Of a stretch of 64,000 nucleotides of DNA, positions 608 to 26,295 are shown in pieces. The notes beneath the pieces were generated by a model, which saw only the letters and a list, made by a program, of their open reading frames with translations, had not been told where the DNA came from and searched no databases. Within the stretch, counting starts at the first letter, position 1, and every line of letters begins with the position of its first letter. The DNA is from Streptomyces sp. TG1A-8 (GTDB taxonomy: Bacteria > Actinomycetota > Actinomycetes > Streptomycetales > Streptomycetaceae). The translations under genes were made by a program, and so were the position numbers. The DNA is taken from assembly GCF_030499535.1 (NCBI RefSeq), contig NZ_JASTLB010000001.1, positions 4,278,001 through 4,342,000 on the forward strand. The letters run 5' to 3'.

Positions 608-1621
608 GTGAACGCAACCAGCCCCGAAGCCGCCGTCCCCGAGGCCGGTCCCGGCCGCATCGTCCTGCTCACCACCAGCCACCGCGTCGCACCCGGCCTG
701 CTGTCCTGGCCCGCCTGGCAGGCGCTGCGCGCGGCCGACGCCGTGCTGTGCGCGGACGGCGCGCATCCGCAGCTGCCGTATCTGCGGGAGGCCGGGGCCG
801 CCGTCCGCGAGGCGTCGCCCACCGCGCGGGAGCTGGTCGACGCCTGCGCGGGCGGGCGCACGGTGGTGGTCGTGGCCACGGGTGAGGGCGAGCCCGCCCT
901 CACCGACGGCCTGGCCCGCCTGGCCGGCTCCGGCCGCGTGCGGATGCCGGATCTGGAACTGCTGCCGGCCTCCTACGACCTGCCCGGCGCCCGCCTCCTG
1001 GACCTGGTCCAGGTCATGGACCGCATCCGTGCCGAGTGCCCCTGGTCATCCCGGCAGACCCACCGGGGACTGGCGAAGTACGGCATCGAGGAGGCGTACG
1101 AACTCGTCGAGGCGATCGAGGCCGGCGACCGCGACGAACTGCGGGAGGAGCTGGGCGACGTCCTGCTCCAGGTCGTCTTCCACTCCCGCATCGCCGAGGA
1201 GGACCCTGAGGCGCCGTTCTCCGTCGACGACGTGGCCGGCGGCATCGTCGCCAAGCTGGTCCACCGCCACCCGCACGTCTTCGGCGACGAGAGGGCCGAG
1301 ACGCCGGAGGACGTCAAGGAGCACTGGCTGCGGACCAAGGCCGAGGAGAAGCGGCGCGGCTCGGTCACCGAAGGCGTCCCCCTCGGCCAGCCCGGACTCG
1401 CCCTCACCGCCAAGCTCGCCTTCCGCGCCCGCACGGCCGGCCTGGACGTCCCGCTCCCGCGGGGCGAGGGCATCGGCTACGAACTGCTGGCCCTGGCGGC
1501 GCGGGCCGAGGCGGAGGGTGTGGACCCGGAGGCGGCCCTGCGGGCGGCGGCCCGGGTCTACCGGGACGCGATACGGGCGGTGGAGGCGGAAGGAAAGGAC
1601 GGCACGGCGGCCGCGCAGTAG
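608..1621 (+). CDS. mazG: Nucleoside triphosphate pyrophosphohydrolase MazG
   Basis: A 337-residue protein with two parts. Residues 1-120 look like a degenerate tetrapyrrole-methylase-type domain (hydrophobic strands such as RIVLLTTSHRV and TVVVVATGEGEPALTDG), an arrangement also known from Bacillus YabN. The MazG core follows: CPWSSRQT, then EEAYELVEAI (the EExxE metal site) and EELGDVLLQVVFH (ExxD). MazG hydrolyses NTPs, including non-canonical ones, to NMP and pyrophosphate in the cytosol. I chose GTG 608 (MNATSPEAAVPE); an in-frame GTG at 590 would add six residues and cannot be excluded. The gene lies between a SurA-like lipoprotein and a P450 gene, with no obvious operon link. Confidence 0.9.
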   Translation: MNATSPEAAVPEAGPGRIVLLTTSHRVAPGLLSWPAWQALRAADAVLCADGAHPQLPYLREAGAAVREASPTARELVDACAGGRTVVVVATGEGEPALTDGLARLAGSGRVRMPDLELLPASYDLPGARLLDLVQVMDRIRAECPWSSRQTHRGLAKYGIEEAYELVEAIEAGDRDELREELGDVLLQVVFHSRIAEEDPEAPFSVDDVAGGIVAKLVHRHPHVFGDERAETPEDVKEHWLRTKAEEKRRGSVTEGVPLGQPGLALTAKLAFRARTAGLDVPLPRGEGIGYELLALAARAEAEGVDPEAALRAAARVYRDAIRAVEAEGKDGTAAAQ

Positions 1622-1825
1622 TTAAGGAGGGGCACCGCGGCGGAGCGGCGGGAGCGGCACCGCGACACGGAGCCGGCCGACTCCTCGAAGGGCGCGGCGG
1701 ACCGCAACGGAACGCGGGGCGTCCCGCACAGCCACGGTGCGGGACGCCCCGGAGCGCCGGAGCGCGGTGTCCGCCGGCCCCGGTCCCCGTGAGGCGCGCC
1801 GCGGCGGGCCCGATACCGTCGGGGG

Positions 1826-3106
1826 GTGACCGACCAGCCCCACCCCCCGACGGCCGACGACTCCGCCCCCGCCCTGTTCACCTGGGAGTTCGCCGCCAAC
1901 CCCTACCCCGCCTACGCCTGGCTGAGGGAGCACGCCCCGGTGCACCGGACGCGGCTGCCCAGCGGGGTCGAGGCATGGCTGGTCACCCGGTACGGCGACG
2001 CCCGGCAGGCCCTCGCCGACCAGCGGCTGAGCAAGGACCCCGCGCACCACGACGAGCCCGCGCACGCCAGGGGCAGGACCGGCATCCCCGGCGAGCGCAA
2101 GGCCGAGCTGATGACGCACCTGCTGAACATCGACCCGCCGGACCACACCCGCCTGCGCCGGCTGGTGAGCAAGGCGTTCACGCCCCGCCGGGTCGCCGAG
2201 TTCGCGCCCCGCGTGCAGGAGCTGACCGATCTGCTCATCGACCGGTTCGCGCGGACCGGCTCCGCCGACCTCATCCACGAGTTCGCCTTCCCGCTCCCCA
2301 TCCACGCCGTCTGCGACCTGCTCGGCGTCCCGCGCGAGGACCAGGACGACTTCCGGGACTGGGCGGGCATGATGATCCGGCACGGGGGAGGACCGCGCGG
2401 CGGGGTCGCGCGGTCGGTCAAGAGGATGCGGGGCTACCTCGCCGACCTCATCCACCGCAAGCGGGCGGCGCTGCCCGCCGAGCCCACCCCGGGCGAGGAC
2501 CTGATCTCCGGCCTCATCCGCGCCTCCGACCACGGCGAGCACCTCACCGAGAACGAGGCCGCCGCCATGGCCTTCATCCTCCTCTTCGCCGGTTTCGAGA
2601 CCACCGTCAACCTCATCGGCAACGGCACCTACGCCCTGCTCACCCACCCCGGGCAGCGCCACCGGCTGCAGCGGTCCCTGGCCGCGGGCGACCGGGACCT
2701 GCTGGAGACCGGCGTGGAGGAACTGCTCCGCTACGACGGCCCGGTGGAGCTGGCCACCTGGCGGTTCGCCACCCGGCCGCTCACCCTCGGCGGACAGGAC
2801 ATCGCCGCCGGGGACCCGGTGCTCGTCGTCCTCGCCGCCGCCGACCGGGACCCGGAGCGGTTCGCGGACCCGGACGTGCTGGACCTCGCCCGGCGCGACA
2901 ACCAGCACCTCGGCTACGGCCACGGCATCCACTACTGCCTCGGCGCCCCGCTCGCCCGGCTGGAGGGCCAGACCGCGCTCGCCACCCTCCTGACCCGCCT
3001 GCCCGACCTGCGGCTCGCGGCGGACCCGGCCGAACTGCGCTGGCGCGGCGGACTCATCATGCGCGGCCTGCGCACACTCCCCGTGGAGTTCACGCCGAGC
3101 ACCTGA
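1826..3106 (+). CDS. Cytochrome P450
   Basis: A 426-residue soluble bacterial P450. The I-helix oxygen-activation motif AGFETT is near residue 255, the K-helix ExxR is VEELLRYDG, and the haem-binding stretch is GYGHGIHYCLGAPLARLEG with proximal Cys371. The N terminus (FTWEFAANPYPAYAWLREH) is typical of actinobacterial class I P450s of the CYP107 kind. It needs ferredoxin and ferredoxin reductase, and neither is encoded beside it, so partners must act in trans. The substrate cannot be read from sequence. The start is GTG 1826 after a G-rich stretch. It stands alone between mazG and the rpf genes, so a housekeeping or orphan tailoring role is equally possible. Confidence 0.93.
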   Translation: MTDQPHPPTADDSAPALFTWEFAANPYPAYAWLREHAPVHRTRLPSGVEAWLVTRYGDARQALADQRLSKDPAHHDEPAHARGRTGIPGERKAELMTHLLNIDPPDHTRLRRLVSKAFTPRRVAEFAPRVQELTDLLIDRFARTGSADLIHEFAFPLPIHAVCDLLGVPREDQDDFRDWAGMMIRHGGGPRGGVARSVKRMRGYLADLIHRKRAALPAEPTPGEDLISGLIRASDHGEHLTENEAAAMAFILLFAGFETTVNLIGNGTYALLTHPGQRHRLQRSLAAGDRDLLETGVEELLRYDGPVELATWRFATRPLTLGGQDIAAGDPVLVVLAAADRDPERFADPDVLDLARRDNQHLGYGHGIHYCLGAPLARLEGQTALATLLTRLPDLRLAADPAELRWRGGLIMRGLRTLPVEFTPST

Positions 3107-3353
3107 GCCCACCGCCTGAGCCCACCGCCACCGAGCCCGCCCGACCCGTGAACGCACCGTCCCCCACCTGCACGGCAGACCCGAACCTCACGTCCCCCGC
3201 GCGAAGGTGACAGGTATTCAACTTCGTGATCTTCATGTGATCTGTGCGGCATGAACTTGTGACAAGTGATCGCCTGCCGATACGTTCACCCCTCAGCGCG
3301 GCGCCGAGCCCCATCCGCCGCGCGGACCCCGCTGTCGCACGAAAGGCTTCCGC

Positions 3354-4433
3354 ATGCTCTCCGGGAACGGCCGTCACCGTCGCCCCCGCCAGGCTCCGGC
3401 CCTCCTCGTCGCGGCCGGAGTGACCGGCTCGGCCATCGCCATCCCGCTCCTCGGCGCCGCGAGCGCCAGCGCGGCCGACGGCACCACGTGGGACAAGGTC
3501 GCCGAGTGCGAAAGCGGCGGCTCCTGGAGCGCCGACACGGGCAACGGCTACTACGGCGGCCTGCAGATCTCCCAGGAGGACTGGGAGGCCCACGGCGGCA
3601 CCCGGTACGCCTCCAGCGCCGACCAGGCCAGCCGCTCGCAGCAGATCGCCGTCGCCGAGAAGATCCTGGCCGACCGGGGCACCACGCCCTGGGCGACCTG
3701 CGCCCTGCTCTCCGGGCTGACCTCCGACTCGGGCTCCGTGGACGTCGACACCGGCGTCGACGGCTCCGGCGCGGCGGACCCGGGCACGGACGACGCGCCC
3801 GGGTCCGGCGACTCCGCCGGGCCCACCGACTCCCCGGGCCCCGCCGGCGGATCGGACCCGTCCGGCCCACCGGACGCGACGCCCTCGGCCGGCTCCGGCC
3901 CCTCCTCGGGCGCGGCCGACACCCCGGCCCCGGCCCCGGGTTCGCGTTCGGGGACGGACGGCCACGAGACCGGCAAGGCAGGCAAAGCGGACGGGGCCGG
4001 CGATGCCGCCAAGTCGGACACGTCCGCATCCGCCGGACCGGAGGGCGGGGGGAGCGGTGGCCCCACCACCACCGGCTCCGCGACCGGCGATCCGGACGAT
4101 TCCTGGCAGAGCGGCGGTTCCTGGAGCCTGGTCGACACCGGCTCCCTCGACACCGGCTCCCTCGACAATGGCGGACGCCACCGCGGCGGCAGTGCGGACG
4201 AAAAAGTGACAAACGGTCAAAGTGCCGCGCCCTCCGGCCGTCACGCCTCCCGGGGTGCGGACACCTACACGGTCCGGCGGGGTGACACCCTCGCCTCCAT
4301 CGCCGACTCCCTCGGCCTCGACGGCGGATGGCACGCGCTCTACGCCGCGAACGAGAAGGCCGTCGGCGCCGACCCGAACCACATCTCCGCCGGTCAGACC
4401 CTGGAAGTAAGGGCGGAAACAGGCGGAAAGTAG
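3354..4433 (+). CDS. Secreted Rpf-like muralytic enzyme with LysM domain (long linker)
   Basis: A 359-residue exported protein. A signal peptide covers about residues 1-40 (basic start, then a hydrophobic core ending in SASA). It is followed by the resuscitation-promoting-factor lysozyme-like domain ([25 protein letters not shown]), with the presumed catalytic Glu in CESGG. A long Gly/Ser/Pro/Asp-rich linker spans about 125-300 and includes a short TGSLD repeat. A C-terminal LysM (YTVRRGDTLASIADSLGL) should bind peptidoglycan. Rpf proteins cleave the glycan backbone and help spores germinate. The start is ATG 3354 after GAAAGG. It lies 354 bases upstream of a shorter Rpf/LysM paralogue and, unlike that one, has no riboswitch. 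In S. coelicolor this position is called rpfC, from memory. Confidence 0.92.
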   Translation: MLSGNGRHRRPRQAPALLVAAGVTGSAIAIPLLGAASASAADGTTWDKVAECESGGSWSADTGNGYYGGLQISQEDWEAHGGTRYASSADQASRSQQIAVAEKILADRGTTPWATCALLSGLTSDSGSVDVDTGVDGSGAADPGTDDAPGSGDSAGPTDSPGPAGGSDPSGPPDATPSAGSGPSSGAADTPAPAPGSRSGTDGHETGKAGKADGAGDAAKSDTSASAGPEGGGSGGPTTTGSATGDPDDSWQSGGSWSLVDTGSLDTGSLDNGGRHRGGSADEKVTNGQSAAPSGRHASRGADTYTVRRGDTLASIADSLGLDGGWHALYAANEKAVGADPNHISAGQTLEVRAETGGK

Positions 4434-4512
4434 CGGGAGTTGACGTCCCGTTTCGCGACCCATGTCCGTTTTGGCGAAAGTGTGGGATGAGTCTCAGAAG
4501 CCCTGATCGTCT

Positions 4513-4542
4513 TTGAAATTTCGCCGGTCCCGTGTCTACGGT
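4513..4542 (+). promoter_or_regulatory. Putative promoter of rpfA
   Basis: TTGAAA (4513-4518) and TACGGT (4537-4542) are separated by 18 bases, a reasonable vegetative-type -35/-10 pair. It lies just before the riboswitch aptamer, so transcription would start near 4549 and include the whole leader. Read by eye only. Confidence 0.5.
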
Positions 4543-4555
4543 CGTGATCGCTCGT

Positions 4556-7180
<2,625 letters not shown>

Positions 7181-7213
7181 TCCCGACCCGGGAGCGGGCC
7201 GAGCCAGTCGTCC

Positions 7214-7256
7214 GTACGTCCCCGCACCCGGTCCCGTACCGTGTGCGGGGACGTAC
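7214..7256 (+). terminator. Hairpin terminator after eno
   Basis: A 14-bp perfect stem (7214-7227 with 7243-7256) in the 101-base space between eno and divIC, with no T run. It ends 25 bases before the divIC start, so it could also attenuate divIC. Confidence 0.6.
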
Positions 7257-7281
7257 GTGCGTGTGAACGGGAGGCGGGGAC

Positions 7282-7767
7282 ATGGCAGTGAAGGGCCGCA
7301 ACGACCGGGACCGGTTCTCCACCGCGACACGGCTGCGGGCCCTCGGCGAGCAGACGGCGGCCCGGGTCTACCGCTCGCAGACCAAACGGCAGGCCCGCCG
7401 CTCCCGGCTCACCGGCCGCGCCGCGCTGCTCGCGCTCGTCCTGTGCTCGCTGATCGTCGCCCTGGCCTACCCGATGCGCCAGTACGTCTCCCAGCGCGCC
7501 GAGATCGCCGACCTCCAGCACCGGCAGGAGCAGGCGCGCCGGCGCGTCGAGCAACTGCGGGACCTCAAGGCGCGCTGGCAGGACGACGCCTACGCCGAGC
7601 AGCAGATCCGGCGCCGGCTGCACTACGTGATGCCCGGGGAGACCGGGTACGTCGTGATCGACCCCGGCGCGGCCGAGCAGTCCCGCGCCGACCTCGGGGC
7701 CGCCCAGCGGCCCTGGTACGCGAACGTCTGGGACGGGGTCGACAAGTCCGACGCCTCCGACCAGTGA
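7282..7767 (+). CDS. divIC: Divisome protein DivIC/FtsB (septum formation initiator)
   Basis: A 161-residue bitopic membrane protein of the DivIC/FtsB family. A basic cytoplasmic start (to about residue 48) is followed by one membrane segment (about 49-68, AALLALVLCSLIVALAYPM). An extracellular coiled coil follows (RAEIADLQHRQEQARRRVEQL), then the family block DDAYAEQQIRRRLHYVMPGE. It should pair with FtsL and FtsQ at sporulation septa; DivIC is known in S. coelicolor at this map position (recall). ATG 7282 follows GGGAGG. It is about 46 bases upstream of the DUF501 gene in the same direction, a common actinobacterial pairing with eno upstream and ppx downstream. Confidence 0.93.
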   Translation: MAVKGRNDRDRFSTATRLRALGEQTAARVYRSQTKRQARRSRLTGRAALLALVLCSLIVALAYPMRQYVSQRAEIADLQHRQEQARRRVEQLRDLKARWQDDAYAEQQIRRRLHYVMPGETGYVVIDPGAAEQSRADLGAAQRPWYANVWDGVDKSDASDQ

Positions 7768-10186: not shown

Positions 10187-10506
10187 GAGATTCGGGTCCG
10201 GCGGACGATCAAAGAGCCCCCCGGGGGCCGTTCGGGGGCCCGGCGGGCTCCGGAGGGTGCTCGCGAGGGCGACGGGCGGGGCTCGTGGGCGGCCCCAGGG
10301 AGGGGGGTTTCCGGAGCGCCTCACGGGACTCGAAAAGACCCGGAAAAGCAGCTCACGCGCCCTTGACAACGGGGCGAAGCGGTCTTTGGTTCCACCGCGC
10401 CGACGCGACCTGCGCCGCACGGGTCGCGGAGTTTAACACAGGCTCTGTCGGACCTTGTGAAGGGGCGCACGAACCCCCCTCCCGCGGCGGGTGGATACTC
10501 GATGCC

Positions 10507-11883
10507 ATGAGCACCACGGAGCGTCCCAGGATCCTCGTAGTAGGCGGTGGGTACGTAGGCCTGTACGCAGCTCGGCGCATCCTCAAGAAGATGCGCTACG
10601 GCGAGGCGACCGTCACGGTCGTCGACCCCCGGTCGTACATGACCTACCAGCCCTTCCTCCCCGAAGCCGCCGCCGGCAGCATCTCCCCCCGGCACGTCGT
10701 CGTCCCGCTGCGACGCGTGCTGCCGAAGGCGGAGGTCCTTACCGGTCGGGTCACCACCATCGACCAGGACCGCAAGGTCGCCACGATCGCCCCGCTGGTG
10801 GGCGAGGCGTACGAGCTGCCCTTCGACTACCTGGTCATCGCGATGGGCGCGGTATCCCGCACCTTCCCGATCCCCGGCCTCGCCGAGCAGGGCATCGGCA
10901 TGAAGGGCATCGAGGAGTCCATCGGCCTGCGCAACCACGTCCTCGAACAGCTCGACAAGGCCGACTCCACCCACGACGAGGAGATCCGCCGCAAGGCGCT
11001 CACCTTCGTCTTCATCGGCGGTGGCTTCGCGGGTGCGGAGACCATCGGCGAGGTCGAGGACATGGCCCGGGACGCGGCCAAGTACTACAAGAACGTGTCC
11101 CGCGAGGACATGCGCTTCATCCTGGTCGACGCCGCCGACAAGATCCTCCCCGAGGTCGGCCCCAAGCTCGGCCAGTACGGCAAGGAGCACCTGGAGAGCC
11201 GGGGCGTGGAGATCTACCTCTCCACCTCCATGGACTCCTGCGTCGACGGCCACGTGGTGCTGAAGAACGGCCTGGAGGTCGACTCCCACACGATCGTGTG
11301 GACCGCGGGCGTCAAGCCCAACCCGGCGCTGACCCGCTTCGGCCTGCCGCTCGGCCCGCGCGGCCACGTCGACTGCGAGCCCACGCTCCAGGTCAAGGGC
11401 ACGGACTACATCTGGGCCGCCGGCGACAACGCACAGGTCCCGGACCTCGTCGGCCGCAAGGCGGGCAACGAGAACGCCTGGTGCCCGCCGAACGCCCAGC
11501 ACGCGCTGCGCCAGGCCAAGGTCCTCGGCGACAACGTGGTCTCCGGCATGCGGGGCTTCCCGCAGAAGGAGTACAGCCACGCCAACAAGGGCGCGGTCGC
11601 GGGCCTCGGCGTGCACAAGGGCGTCGCGATGATCGTCATGGGCAAGATGAAGATCAAGCTCAAGGGCCGTCTCGCCTGGTACATGCACCGCGGCTACCAC
11701 GGTCTGGCGATGCCGACCTGGAACCGCAAGATCCGCATCTTCGCCGACTGGACCCTCGGCATGTTCCTCAAGCGCGAGGTCGTCTCCCTCGGCGCCGTGG
11801 AGAACCCGCGCGAGGAGTTCTACGAGGCCGCCAAGCCGGCGCCGGTCGCCGCGAAGACCGAGGAGAGGGCCAAGGCCTCCTGA
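10507..11883 (+). CDS. ndh: Type II NADH dehydrogenase
   Basis: A 458-residue flavoprotein that passes electrons from NADH to menaquinone without pumping protons. The FAD loop is ILVVGGGYVGLYAARR at the N terminus and the NADH loop is FVFIGGGFAGAETIGE near residue 175. TVVDPRSYMTYQPFLPEAAAG, VWTAGVKPNP and DYIWAAGDNAQVPD are typical of NDH-2. The C-terminal amphipathic region (LGMFLKREVVSLG) would hold it at the inner face of the membrane. The start is ATG 10507; longer in-frame starts upstream run through non-coding-looking sequence. The Rex operator upstream ties expression to the NADH/NAD+ ratio. A strong hairpin follows at 11907-11946. Confidence 0.96.
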   Translation: MSTTERPRILVVGGGYVGLYAARRILKKMRYGEATVTVVDPRSYMTYQPFLPEAAAGSISPRHVVVPLRRVLPKAEVLTGRVTTIDQDRKVATIAPLVGEAYELPFDYLVIAMGAVSRTFPIPGLAEQGIGMKGIEESIGLRNHVLEQLDKADSTHDEEIRRKALTFVFIGGGFAGAETIGEVEDMARDAAKYYKNVSREDMRFILVDAADKILPEVGPKLGQYGKEHLESRGVEIYLSTSMDSCVDGHVVLKNGLEVDSHTIVWTAGVKPNPALTRFGLPLGPRGHVDCEPTLQVKGTDYIWAAGDNAQVPDLVGRKAGNENAWCPPNAQHALRQAKVLGDNVVSGMRGFPQKEYSHANKGAVAGLGVHKGVAMIVMGKMKIKLKGRLAWYMHRGYHGLAMPTWNRKIRIFADWTLGMFLKREVVSLGAVENPREEFYEAAKPAPVAAKTEERAKAS

Positions 11884-24171: not shown

Positions 24172-24546
24172 TCAGACCTCCAGCTCCTCCTCGATCCGCT
24201 TCAGCCGGTGCCGGGCCATCGCCAGGTTGGCCCGGCCGGAGTCCAGCACCAGGTAGAGGAACAGGCCGTTGCCGCCGCGGCCCTTGAGCAGGCGGATCAG
24301 GTGGTACTGGTCGGACAGGGTGATCAGGATGTCCTCGATCTCGGTCTTGAGGCCCAGGTGTTCCATCGTGCGCATCTTGGCGCGGATGACGTCCGTGTTG
24401 CCGGCGGCCGCCACGTTCAGGTCGAAGTTCTTGCTGCCGCCCATCGTGCCCAGCGCCATTCCGCTGGTGTAGTCGACGAGCGCGACGCCGGTGGCGCCCT
24501 CGATGGAGGTGAGCGCTTCCTCCAGTGCGGCCTCGGTGTTGGCCAT
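24172..24546 (-). CDS. Roadblock/LC7-type protein (fourth gene of operon)
   Basis: A 124-residue protein starting MANTEAALEEALTSIEGATGVALVDYTSGMALGTMG, then VIRAKMRTMEHLGLKTEIEDILITLSDQYHLIRLL and a final strand GNGLFLYLVLDSGRANLAMARH. The pattern of an N-terminal helix, VALVDYTSGMALG, and the strand pair around ILITLSDQYHLIRLL fits the Roadblock/LC7 fold, small regulators that usually bind Ras-like GTPases. It is a clear paralogue of the protein at 25906-26295, which shares VDWTSGLALGT and DVIISNRDSYHLLRF. It is the last gene of a four-gene minus-strand operon. Confidence 0.8.
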   Translation of the reverse strand: MANTEAALEEALTSIEGATGVALVDYTSGMALGTMGGSKNFDLNVAAAGNTDVIRAKMRTMEHLGLKTEIEDILITLSDQYHLIRLLKGRGGNGLFLYLVLDSGRANLAMARHRLKRIEEELEV

Positions 24547-24555
24547 GGTGTCCTC

Positions 24556-25056
24556 TCAGCTGTCGGTTGCGGCGCGCGCGTCGGCGGCCGTGGCGCGCGG
24601 CGCGCGCGGGGTGCGGGTGCGGGCCGGCGGGGTCCTGGCGGCGGGTGCGGCCGGGCCGGCGGTCCGGGCCGCGGCCTCGGCGGCGTCCAGCAGCTCTCCC
24701 AGGCGGGTCGCGGAGCGGCGGCCCTCCAGGTGCAGCCGGCCCACGTTGACCCGGTCCTGGGCGAGCAGGGTCAGCACGGCGGTGCGGCCGGCCGCGTAGG
24801 TGGCGACGTAGCCGTGCTCGCCGCGCACCAGCAGTTCGCGGAAGTCGCCGTTGCCGGTGGCGTCGGCGACCCGGACGGCCACGCCGAGCGAGGCCGCGGT
24901 GAGCGCCGCCAGGCCCTCCGGGTCGACACCGGGGGTGTCGTGGGCGACGACGAGTCCGTCGACGCCGGCCGTGAGGGCGCCGGTGAGCTGCGGCACGCGG
25001 GCGCGCAGCCGGCGCAGTTCCTCCAGCACGGCCTCCAGGTCCACTCCGGCCACCAT
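24556..25056 (-). CDS. Roadblock/LC7-type protein with Ala/Pro/Arg tail (third gene of operon)
   Basis: A 166-residue protein. Residues 1-125 have the Roadblock pattern (LEEVLEELRRLRARVPQLTGALTAGVDGLVVAHDTPGVDPEGLA is split here as helix, then ALTAGVDGLVVAHD, AALTAASLGVAVRVA, LLVRGEHGYVATYAAG and TAVLTLLAQDRVNVGRLHLE). The C-terminal 40 residues are Ala/Pro/Arg/Thr-rich and likely disordered. ATG 25054-25056 follows GAGGAGAGAG. It lies 9 bases before the fourth gene and 31 bases after the DUF4388 gene, so all are probably on one transcript. It is closer to CvnB/MglB-like GTPase regulators than to its neighbours. Confidence 0.75.
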   Translation of the reverse strand: MVAGVDLEAVLEELRRLRARVPQLTGALTAGVDGLVVAHDTPGVDPEGLAALTAASLGVAVRVADATGNGDFRELLVRGEHGYVATYAAGRTAVLTLLAQDRVNVGRLHLEGRRSATRLGELLDAAEAAARTAGPAAPAARTPPARTRTPRAPRATAADARAATDS

Positions 25057-25087
25057 CAGCTCTCTCCTCTCGGCGGGGCGGTACCGC

Positions 25088-25909
25088 TCACAGCGCCTCC
25101 AGCGCATCCCTGAGCCTCTTCAGCAGCGTGACGTCGGGGTCGGTGACCGTGAGCGGGGGAGCCGGGACGGCCGGGGGCGGCGGGCCGGACGCCGCGGGAA
25201 CCGGGGCGAGCAGCCCGGCCGCCGCCAGCCGCCGTACGTCCACCAGCGTGTGGAACGCCTGCCGGCCCAGGTCCCGGGCGATCTCCGGGGCCGTGCGGAC
25301 CCCGTCCACCCGGTCCAGGACCGCCCGCCGGCGCGGGGGGACCGGCACCGGCGCGGCCGGGTCGGCCCGGACCAGCGGGGCGCTGTCGGTCGCCGGGTCG
25401 GGCCACAGCCGGTGCAGCAGCAGGCGGCGGCGCAGCGTCTCGCGTTCCAGCGCGACGACCGGGACCGGGGGCAGCGGGCCGGGGTCGGGCACGCCGTCGT
25501 AGTGGAAGCGGCCCGGGACGCCGCTCGGCGCCAGCGCGAAGAACCCGGCGTCGTACAGCGCGTCCAGGTGGCACAGTTCCAGCGCGCCCGCGGGCAGCAG
25601 GCCGGCGTCGAGCAGCAGGCGGACGGTTCCGGGGACGTCGGAGGCCCGCCGCGCCGCCCGCTGCCAGGCGGTGGCGGCGAGGGTGCCGTGGGCCGTGAGG
25701 AGCACGTCGAGGCCCGGGGCGTGGGGGCTCTCGGCGTGCACCACGCGGCCCCGGGCCAGGTACAGGGTGCCGTGCTCGCGGACGAGGACGCCGGTGGCCC
25801 GCTCCTCGGCGAGCCGGCCGAGCATCGGCGACAGGGCGCCGGCGGTCCGGTCGCCCGCGGTGGCCTTGTCCCGCACGGGCAGCGGGGGAGGGGTGGCCAC
25901 CGTGATCAT
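25088..25909 (-). CDS. DUF4388/PATAN-like protein with C-terminal winged-helix-like domain
   Basis: A 273-residue protein. Residues 25-90 look like a DUF4388 (PATAN-like) module: LGRLAEERATGVLVREHGTLYLARGRVVHAES, the short hairpin pattern of that family. Residues 190-240 look like a winged helix (RRAVLDRVDGVRTAPEIARDLG; TLVDVRRLAAAGLLAPV). A Pro-rich spacer leads to a final short helix. In other bacteria DUF4388 proteins occur with Roadblock proteins and two-component or gliding systems; the biochemical role is unknown. Its ATG (25907-25909) overlaps the stop of the first Roadblock gene, so it is translationally coupled to it. Confidence 0.7.
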   Translation of the reverse strand: MITVATPPPLPVRDKATAGDRTAGALSPMLGRLAEERATGVLVREHGTLYLARGRVVHAESPHAPGLDVLLTAHGTLAATAWQRAARRASDVPGTVRLLLDAGLLPAGALELCHLDALYDAGFFALAPSGVPGRFHYDGVPDPGPLPPVPVVALERETLRRRLLLHRLWPDPATDSAPLVRADPAAPVPVPPRRRAVLDRVDGVRTAPEIARDLGRQAFHTLVDVRRLAAAGLLAPVPAASGPPPPAVPAPPLTVTDPDVTLLKRLRDALEAL

Positions 25910-26295
25910 CCCAGCACCAGCCGGGCGGCCACCTCGCCGAGCCGGATCCGGGCGAGCGCGAGGTTGCCGTCCTCGCGGCCGACCCACAGGTGCAGGAAGA
26001 CGCTGCTGTCGAAGGACGTGTCCACGAAGCGCAGCAGGTGGTAGCTGTCGCGGTTGCTGATGATGACGTCCTCCACCGGGGGGCGCCCGTCCCCGTCCGC
26101 GCCGGCGGTGAAGGCGCCGTGCTCGGCGGCCATCCGGGCCAGTTCGGCGGCCTCGGCGGCGGTGGTCTCGTGATCACCGCCGGGGGCCTCCCCGACCGTG
26201 CCGAGGGCGAGTCCGCTCGTCCAGTCCACCAGTGCGGCCCCCCGGGCACCGGGCAGTCGCATCGCTTCCAGCAGGCACGCGTCGATTCCGGGCAC
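25906..26295 (-). CDS. Roadblock/LC7-type protein (first gene of operon)
   Basis: A 129-residue protein with the Roadblock pattern: MPGIDACLLEAMRLPGARGAALVDWTSG is read as an N-terminal helix and first strand, then GLALGTVGEAPGG, LARMAAEHGAFTA, VEDVIISNRDSYHLLRFV and VFLHLWVGREDGNLALARIRL. It is a close relative of the last gene of the operon (24172). The start GTG 26293-26295 follows GGGAGGGG; longer frames upstream would include a promoter-like low-GC stretch. The upstream 135 bases separate it from the PLP decarboxylase gene on the same strand. Confidence 0.78.
   Translation of the reverse strand: MPGIDACLLEAMRLPGARGAALVDWTSGLALGTVGEAPGGDHETTAAEAAELARMAAEHGAFTAGADGDGRPPVEDVIISNRDSYHLLRFVDTSFDSSVFLHLWVGREDGNLALARIRLGEVAARLVLG

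Follow-up and report, generated by a model that had tools for sequence, protein, structure and literature searches.

The closest described systems to the locus reported here are the conservons (CvnA-D; Cvn8 and Cvn9 of S. coelicolor, Mfp of mycobacteria) and the MglA-MglB systems (the polarity module of Myxococcus, with MglC; MglAB in Thermus). In the available parts of two papers, MfpD, the CvnB homologue, is reported as a GTPase-activating protein (GAP) and MfpC, the CvnC homologue, as a (likely) guanine nucleotide exchange factor (GEF), both for the GTPase MfpB (PMC13343842, PMC13015309); the first of these calls the conservon signal path poorly understood. Wuichet and Sogaard-Andersen (2014; PMC4316618), in the available part of their account, recognised a small actinobacterial MglB clade made up "exclusively" of "orphans", with no flanking conservon genes, and placed PATAN genes near some MglA genes and MglB, citing Makarova et al. 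2006. We analysed a 64,000-nucleotide stretch of the Streptomyces sp. TG1A-8 genome (the window), in which four minus-strand open reading frames (ORFs) occupy exactly 24172-26295 in the order RB3-DUF-RB2-RB1. We put at slightly better than even the chance that this operon is an offshoot of the MglAB and conservon systems, devoid of GTPase and kinase, that acts in trans on CvnD GTPases. Its features are as follows.

RB3: 25906..26295, minus strand, divergent roadblock protein of 129 amino acids (aa), GTG start, first gene of the operon.
DUF: 25088..25909, minus strand, DUF4388 (PATAN-like) domain with winged helix and C-terminal helix, 273 aa, ATG start.
CvnC/DUF742-like module of the DUF protein: 25091..25399, minus strand, residues 171-273, comprising the winged helix and C-terminal helix.
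RB2: 24556..25056, minus strand, roadblock classed as MglB-type, 166 aa, ATG start, outside the CvnB set.
RB1: 24172..24546, minus strand, highly conserved protein with predicted roadblock fold, 124 aa, ATG start, final gene of the operon.

A preliminary description of this DNA had proposed four tightly packed genes on one strand, and the spacing agrees: RB3 and DUF overlap by 4 bases, and gaps of 31 and 9 bases separate DUF from RB2 and RB2 from RB1. It had also listed the sensor kinase, DUF742 and GTPase of conservons as missing. For kinase and GTPase this held. Three of the ORFs encode roadblocks and the other a DUF4388 protein, and none is a CvnA sensor kinase gene; no own-genome match to PF03029 (GTPase) or PF05331 (DUF742) falls inside the window; and the window operon has no cognate MglA-type GTPase gene to go with its MglB-type RB2. 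For DUF742 it was not confirmed: by profile comparison, the DUF protein appears to carry a fused DUF742-like module.

The plain Pfam scan, with no PF05331 match in the window, had missed this tail. The C-terminus of the DUF family, '...DPDxxLLxRLRxALxAL', looks like that of CvnC. Alignment by hhalign of a DUF profile (56 sequences) with a CvnC profile (13 rows, all 13 matching PF05331) gave a probability of 95.3 and E 2.4e-8 over 96 columns, spanning the winged helix to the last residue (∼100 C-terminal residues). Against the CvnC profile the winged helix alone scored E 9.8e-7 and the tail alone 3.4e-5, and the N-terminal part 0.24. Control profiles compared with the DUF profile gave 0.13 (ArsR), 0.81 (TetR), 0.31 (PadR) and 0.34 (MurR), TetR and PadR having only 3 rows each; the reversed CvnC profile gave 0.47 and the best of 30 column-shuffled profiles 0.048, all as E-values that apply to single comparisons. 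Judged from these profiles, the DUF protein ends in a divergent, fused CvnC/DUF742-like module. Its AlphaFold2 model has a predicted local distance difference test (pLDDT) score of 87.8. The DUF4388 assignment of the preliminary description fell short in the window copy itself, at 15.2 bits against PF14332 (cut-off 25), and found backing among relatives: 26 of 56 matched DUF4388 at E≤0.01, and one from Streptosporangium (L116) passed the cut-off at 26.5 bits.

Three Roadblock/LC7-type proteins had likewise been proposed. RB2 is a clear case, matching Robl_LC7 at 63.1 bits (cut-off 23). RB1 matched no Pfam model and has a predicted roadblock fold, being the only roadblock of the operon that was modelled; here the structure prediction suggested beforehand as a check came out as expected. 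RB3 stayed under the cut-off at 16.9 bits and aligns with RB1 along its full length. The two are paralogues by sequence, as had been stated, with 37% identity (tblastn, own genome; 35% in the alignment), and are set apart from each other in the tree.

Matches of RB2 among PDB sequences were 7f8m (a Thorarchaeota roadblock, E 3.1e-12), CvnB5 (cvnB5; 3leq) and MglB (3t1s/3t1r/1j3w). In the RB2 tree the operon proteins fall outside a CvnB set of 15 CvnB rows and one orphan (support 99/98), as do the GTPase-linked RB2 proteins of L076 and L200 described below; support at some deep forks is weak (79/93) and several branches were flagged as long, which leaves the exact root of the operon clade uncertain. 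RB2, MglB-type by its sequence matches, probably belongs to the orphan actinobacterial MglB clade. Taken with the likeness of the DUF tail to CvnC/DUF742, the operon holds counterparts of CvnB and CvnC, the latter joined to a PATAN-like domain, plus two extra roadblocks.

The operon shares with conservons a roadblock, here MglB-type, and a CvnC/DUF742-like winged helix and C-terminal helix; moreover RB1 paralogues, and in one named locus the whole operon, adjoin CvnD genes. It differs in having neither CvnA kinase nor CvnD, in the fusion of the CvnC-like part to DUF4388, in its two additional roadblocks, and in the position of RB2 outside the CvnB set. Unlike the MglA-MglB systems, it lacks MglA and has a PATAN-CvnC fusion. 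The Ragulator/EGO platforms for Rag GTPases also have several roadblocks of similar fold, but family kinship with the operon proteins is not established, and the structure predictions here cover single chains.

We looked for GTPase genes beside relatives of the operon. RB1-type proteins were found in 21 of 396 genomes sampled from the phylum, 11 in the window's genus (own genome included) and 10 outside it. In five of these ten, a Ras-like GTPase gene lies in one run with RB1 and an MglB-type gene. The order is GTPase-X-RB2-RB1 in G231 (L076) and in G221 (L200), which has in addition a divergent RB2-DUF4388-GTPase set; GTPase-RB2-RB1 in G139 (L195) and G307 (L201), with weak Pfam matches and a readable P-loop; and RB1-GTPase-RB2 in G247 (L199). 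G050 has RB3-DUF-RB1 and G204 has RB2-RB1, neither with a GTPase in the run; RB1 stands alone in G237 and G005; and G130, whose RB1 match contains stops, was left out of locus mapping. In L200, and in L077 from one further genome, a DUF4388 gene immediately precedes a GTPase gene. The protein between GTPase and RB2 is conserved, ∼190–200 aa and alike in L076 (2237-2782) and L200 (∼10330-10960); the L076 copy had no Pfam match.

Streptomyces sp. RPT161 (L189) has a CvnD gene ahead of the operon, on the operon strand and with its end 69 bases upstream of RB3. This gene is preceded by a CHAD/CYTH protein gene, and no CvnB- or CvnC-like gene beyond the operon's own was found at the locus. This CvnD shares 82% identity with one own-genome CvnD and sits within the CvnD clade, which makes it look recruited. 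GTPases of the deep relatives lie outside that clade (L199 and L201 as long branches). In two lineages RB1 paralogues also adjoin conservons, co-directionally in L089, L171, L191 and L202 and divergently in L095, L097, L098 and L100. Of these loci, L089, L095 and L097 have confirmed kinase-type ATPase domains, and L089, L097, L100 and L171 have confirmed DUF742; no RB2-type gene was called in L098 or L202. GTPase-adjacent neighbourhoods in relatives had been named beforehand as evidence against a stand-alone system, and the survey found them (L076, L195, L199, L200, L201, L189).

Candidate partners exist elsewhere in the TG1A-8 genome, which has 13 Robl_LC7 places, 10 CvnD GTPases and 10 DUF742 places. 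All ten CvnD genes lie outside the window, each with a Robl match no more than 0.9 kb away. Two Robl places have no nearby GTPase: RB2 of the window and one near 6.17 Mb. The latter orphan (L108 6175-6588) groups with CvnB, unlike RB2, and its nearest CvnD is 282 kb off. Among 36 examined genomes with the operon or an RB1 relative, 35 had a PF03029 match, over the cut-off in 33. The earlier suggestion that the set could regulate a GTPase encoded elsewhere gains from the ten CvnD genes and from the GTPase adjacency in relatives.

The gene combination is conserved. Searching 140 Streptomyces genomes at E≤1e-10, we found the DUF protein in 116 and no match in 24; the phylum sample yielded it in 21 of 396 genomes at E≤0.001, some of these matches being marginal. 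All organism-named relatives of RB1 and of DUF among the best 120 listed are Streptomyces. Loci were mapped in 60 of the 116 DUF-bearing genomes, and 58 of these 60 further loci had the order RB3-DUF-RB2-RB1, which puts the set beyond chance. Further DUF-bearing Streptomyces loci looked at apart from this mapping are not counted among the 60. Of the two loci without the full order, one lacks a called RB2 and one has DUF called in two pieces (L256, where the genome search reports a stop within the match). Upstream neighbours vary among the mapped loci; thus the four genes stay linked as their surroundings change. Median identities to the window proteins were 81% for RB1, 72% for RB2, 69% for RB3 and 57% for DUF. 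The RB2-RB1 gap was ≤60 bases in only 23 of the 58 operons (median 80, with some starts misplaced), and the other two in 54 and 50 of 58.

We also mapped named loci, the best 80 of 403 confirmed. The full four-gene set was present in 42: 35 plain, 5 with an extra upstream DUF-matching protein, 1 from Nocardia with a second RB2-RB1 pair, and 1 with a GTPase. RB1 stood alone in 23, and 15 had other or partial sets. The full set is known from Streptomyces, Kitasatospora, Actinoplanes, Streptosporangium, Actinomadura and Nocardia. Gene maps came from a home-made high-GC gene caller and local hidden Markov models (HMMs), and some genes were missed or shortened: the third gene and one GTPase 5' end in L200, the GTPase 5' ends of L195 and L201, the RB3 start of L189, and all genes of L196.

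That regulators of a switch are conserved where they have no switch themselves suggests that they act in trans, with the CvnD proteins as obvious candidate clients of the operon. We infer that the four proteins most likely join in one complex, in which RB2 would take the GAP position and the DUF protein, by analogy of its CvnC/DUF742-like tail, the GEF position; RB1 and RB3 could make heterodimers or a platform with RB2. Such a complex would control the GTP/GDP state or the placement of at least one CvnD GTPase from elsewhere in the genome, with the PATAN-like domain replacing the CvnA kinase as input. The simplest origin would be a module of MglA, MglB and RB1, joined in some lineages by DUF4388. 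In the line of Streptomyces and its relatives the GTPase gene would have been lost, or else never acquired; the regulators would have been retained in its absence, RB3 added, and the DUF protein would carry the CvnC-like tail. A wider role, as a hub whose three roadblocks and PATAN-CvnC fusion form a shared GAP/GEF-type complex serving several conservon GTPases and linking separate Cvn pathways with no GTPase of its own, seems to us rather unlikely.

Several observations weigh against action in trans on CvnD. No GTPase match was found in the fetched stretch of any of the 60 Streptomyces loci, and among the best 80 named loci only 1 of 42 full operons (L189) has one; with GTPases so rare at operons, linkage does not reveal the partner where the operon is commonest. 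Conservon GTPases were present in every own-genus genome examined, so their co-occurrence with the operon is weak evidence, and in one genome, G005, RB1 stands alone and PF03029 has no match. RB3 was not recognised in the GTPase-linked relatives, and the DUF protein is also missing from L195, L199 and L201. Matches in L195 and L201 are weak, at 18.0–18.4 bits for the roadblock (cut-off 23) and 14.6–17.2 for the GTPase (cut-off 27), with GTPase N-termini cut by the gene caller. As RB2 lies outside the CvnB set, a client in common with CvnB is not implied. On the DUF side, the CvnC HMM picked out few of the 189 DUF-labelled genes (9 at E≤1e-3, 25 at E≤0.01), and the CvnC profile is itself weakly similar to ArsR (0.0041); some of the DUF-CvnC signal may reflect a likeness common to winged helices. 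The scarcity of single-sequence CvnC matches and the weakness of the Pfam matches in L195 and L201 leave us only moderately confident of action in trans.

The best-surviving alternative is a GTPase-free scaffold, in which the roadblocks and DUF protein form a stable hetero-oligomer that organises some other client and makes no GTPase contact. Against it, the DUF protein keeps a CvnC-like tail, RB1 repeatedly adjoins GTPase genes or conservons, and a CvnD gene sits at the operon in L189; we find such a scaffold doubtful.

The winged helix of the DUF protein might instead bind DNA, with the roadblocks as its sensors or co-factors. Many DUF relatives are annotated 'transcriptional regulator' in public records, 3 of 56 matched MarR_2 at E≤0.01, and ArsR-like genes occur in 24 loci, mostly those with lone RB1 paralogues. 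We consider a transcription regulator improbable, for it is CvnC that the winged helix matches, with the CvnC homologue MfpC a reported GEF, and the ArsR, TetR, PadR and MurR profiles were not matched, with the reservation on row numbers given above. The ArsR-like genes are also of note in themselves: RB1 paralogues outside the operon often occur with such a gene of ∼120 codons (25 genes in the 24 loci, including L117, L135, L165, L169, L175, L177-L179, L183 and L187), which adjoins RB1 in several maps and in L089 (8182-8577) was confirmed as PF01022. RB1 and ArsR may possibly form a unit.

A role for the PATAN-like domain in regulating a secretion or pilus-type ATPase, as deep relatives might hint, appears very improbable. 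It draws on L200, from a distant actinobacterium, where two T2SSE/MshEN (PilB-like) ATPase genes come after the MglB-type, DUF4388 and GTPase genes on the same strand (1052-7683), and on two M. xanthus PATAN proteins that are among the candidates in the available part of a study of type IV pili (PMC11580455). L200 is a single locus, however, and the Streptomyces loci were not searched for T2SSE genes. That the operon is a functionless relic of a lost GTPase system, as the 24 Streptomyces genomes without a DUF match and the split gene of L256 might suggest, is hardly credible, since the complete set was called in its usual order at 58 of 60 loci and the median identities are those given above.

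The preliminary description had also offered the set as a stand-alone, undescribed system. The GTPase beside RB1 and an MglB-type gene in five genomes and the CvnD upstream in L189 speak against standing alone, and part of the background is in print: orphan MglB away from conservons and PATAN near MglA are already described. The operon is best read as a variation on known G-protein signalling. The four-gene operon, the RB1/RB3 paralogues, the CvnC-like tail and the GTPase-linked relatives are absent from the available part of the PMC4316618 account of orphan MglB. A literature search by title and abstract, with most subscription papers outside it, found no paper about the four-gene operon and only one for 'DUF4388', on Chloroflexi nitrite reductase; the word 'roadblock' is absent from PMC13118837 and PMC4255298. 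Streptomyces have many conservon systems in parallel (ten CvnD genes here), and a widely conserved operon that has the regulatory parts but lacks a GTPase offers a concrete candidate for their regulation in trans. For the orphan actinobacterial MglB genes, it points to a possible descent from GTPase-linked modules and to partners that can be tested.

Other arrangements were noted. The five loci with an extra DUF-profile protein (130–174 aa, just upstream of RB3; L123, L131, L132, L143, L170) are of Micromonosporaceae type (Actinoplanes, Paractinoplanes, Nucisporomicrobium). A second locus type in some Streptomyces (L080, L081, L082; ∼7.8–10.9 kb), with no GTPase match in its 16-kb stretches, combines an MglB-type roadblock with a DUF-like protein of 300–707 aa and with a third protein, 128–142 aa long, that reads like another roadblock (the L082 copy without Pfam match). 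In TG1A-8 (assembly of 7.66 Mb in 4 contigs; window GC 71–77% in 4-kb steps), the upstream neighbour of the operon is a pyridoxal-phosphate-dependent decarboxylase on the same strand, and beyond the 3' end of the operon two genes lie on the opposite strand, one whose product has no Pfam match and one for an RpiR-type regulator.

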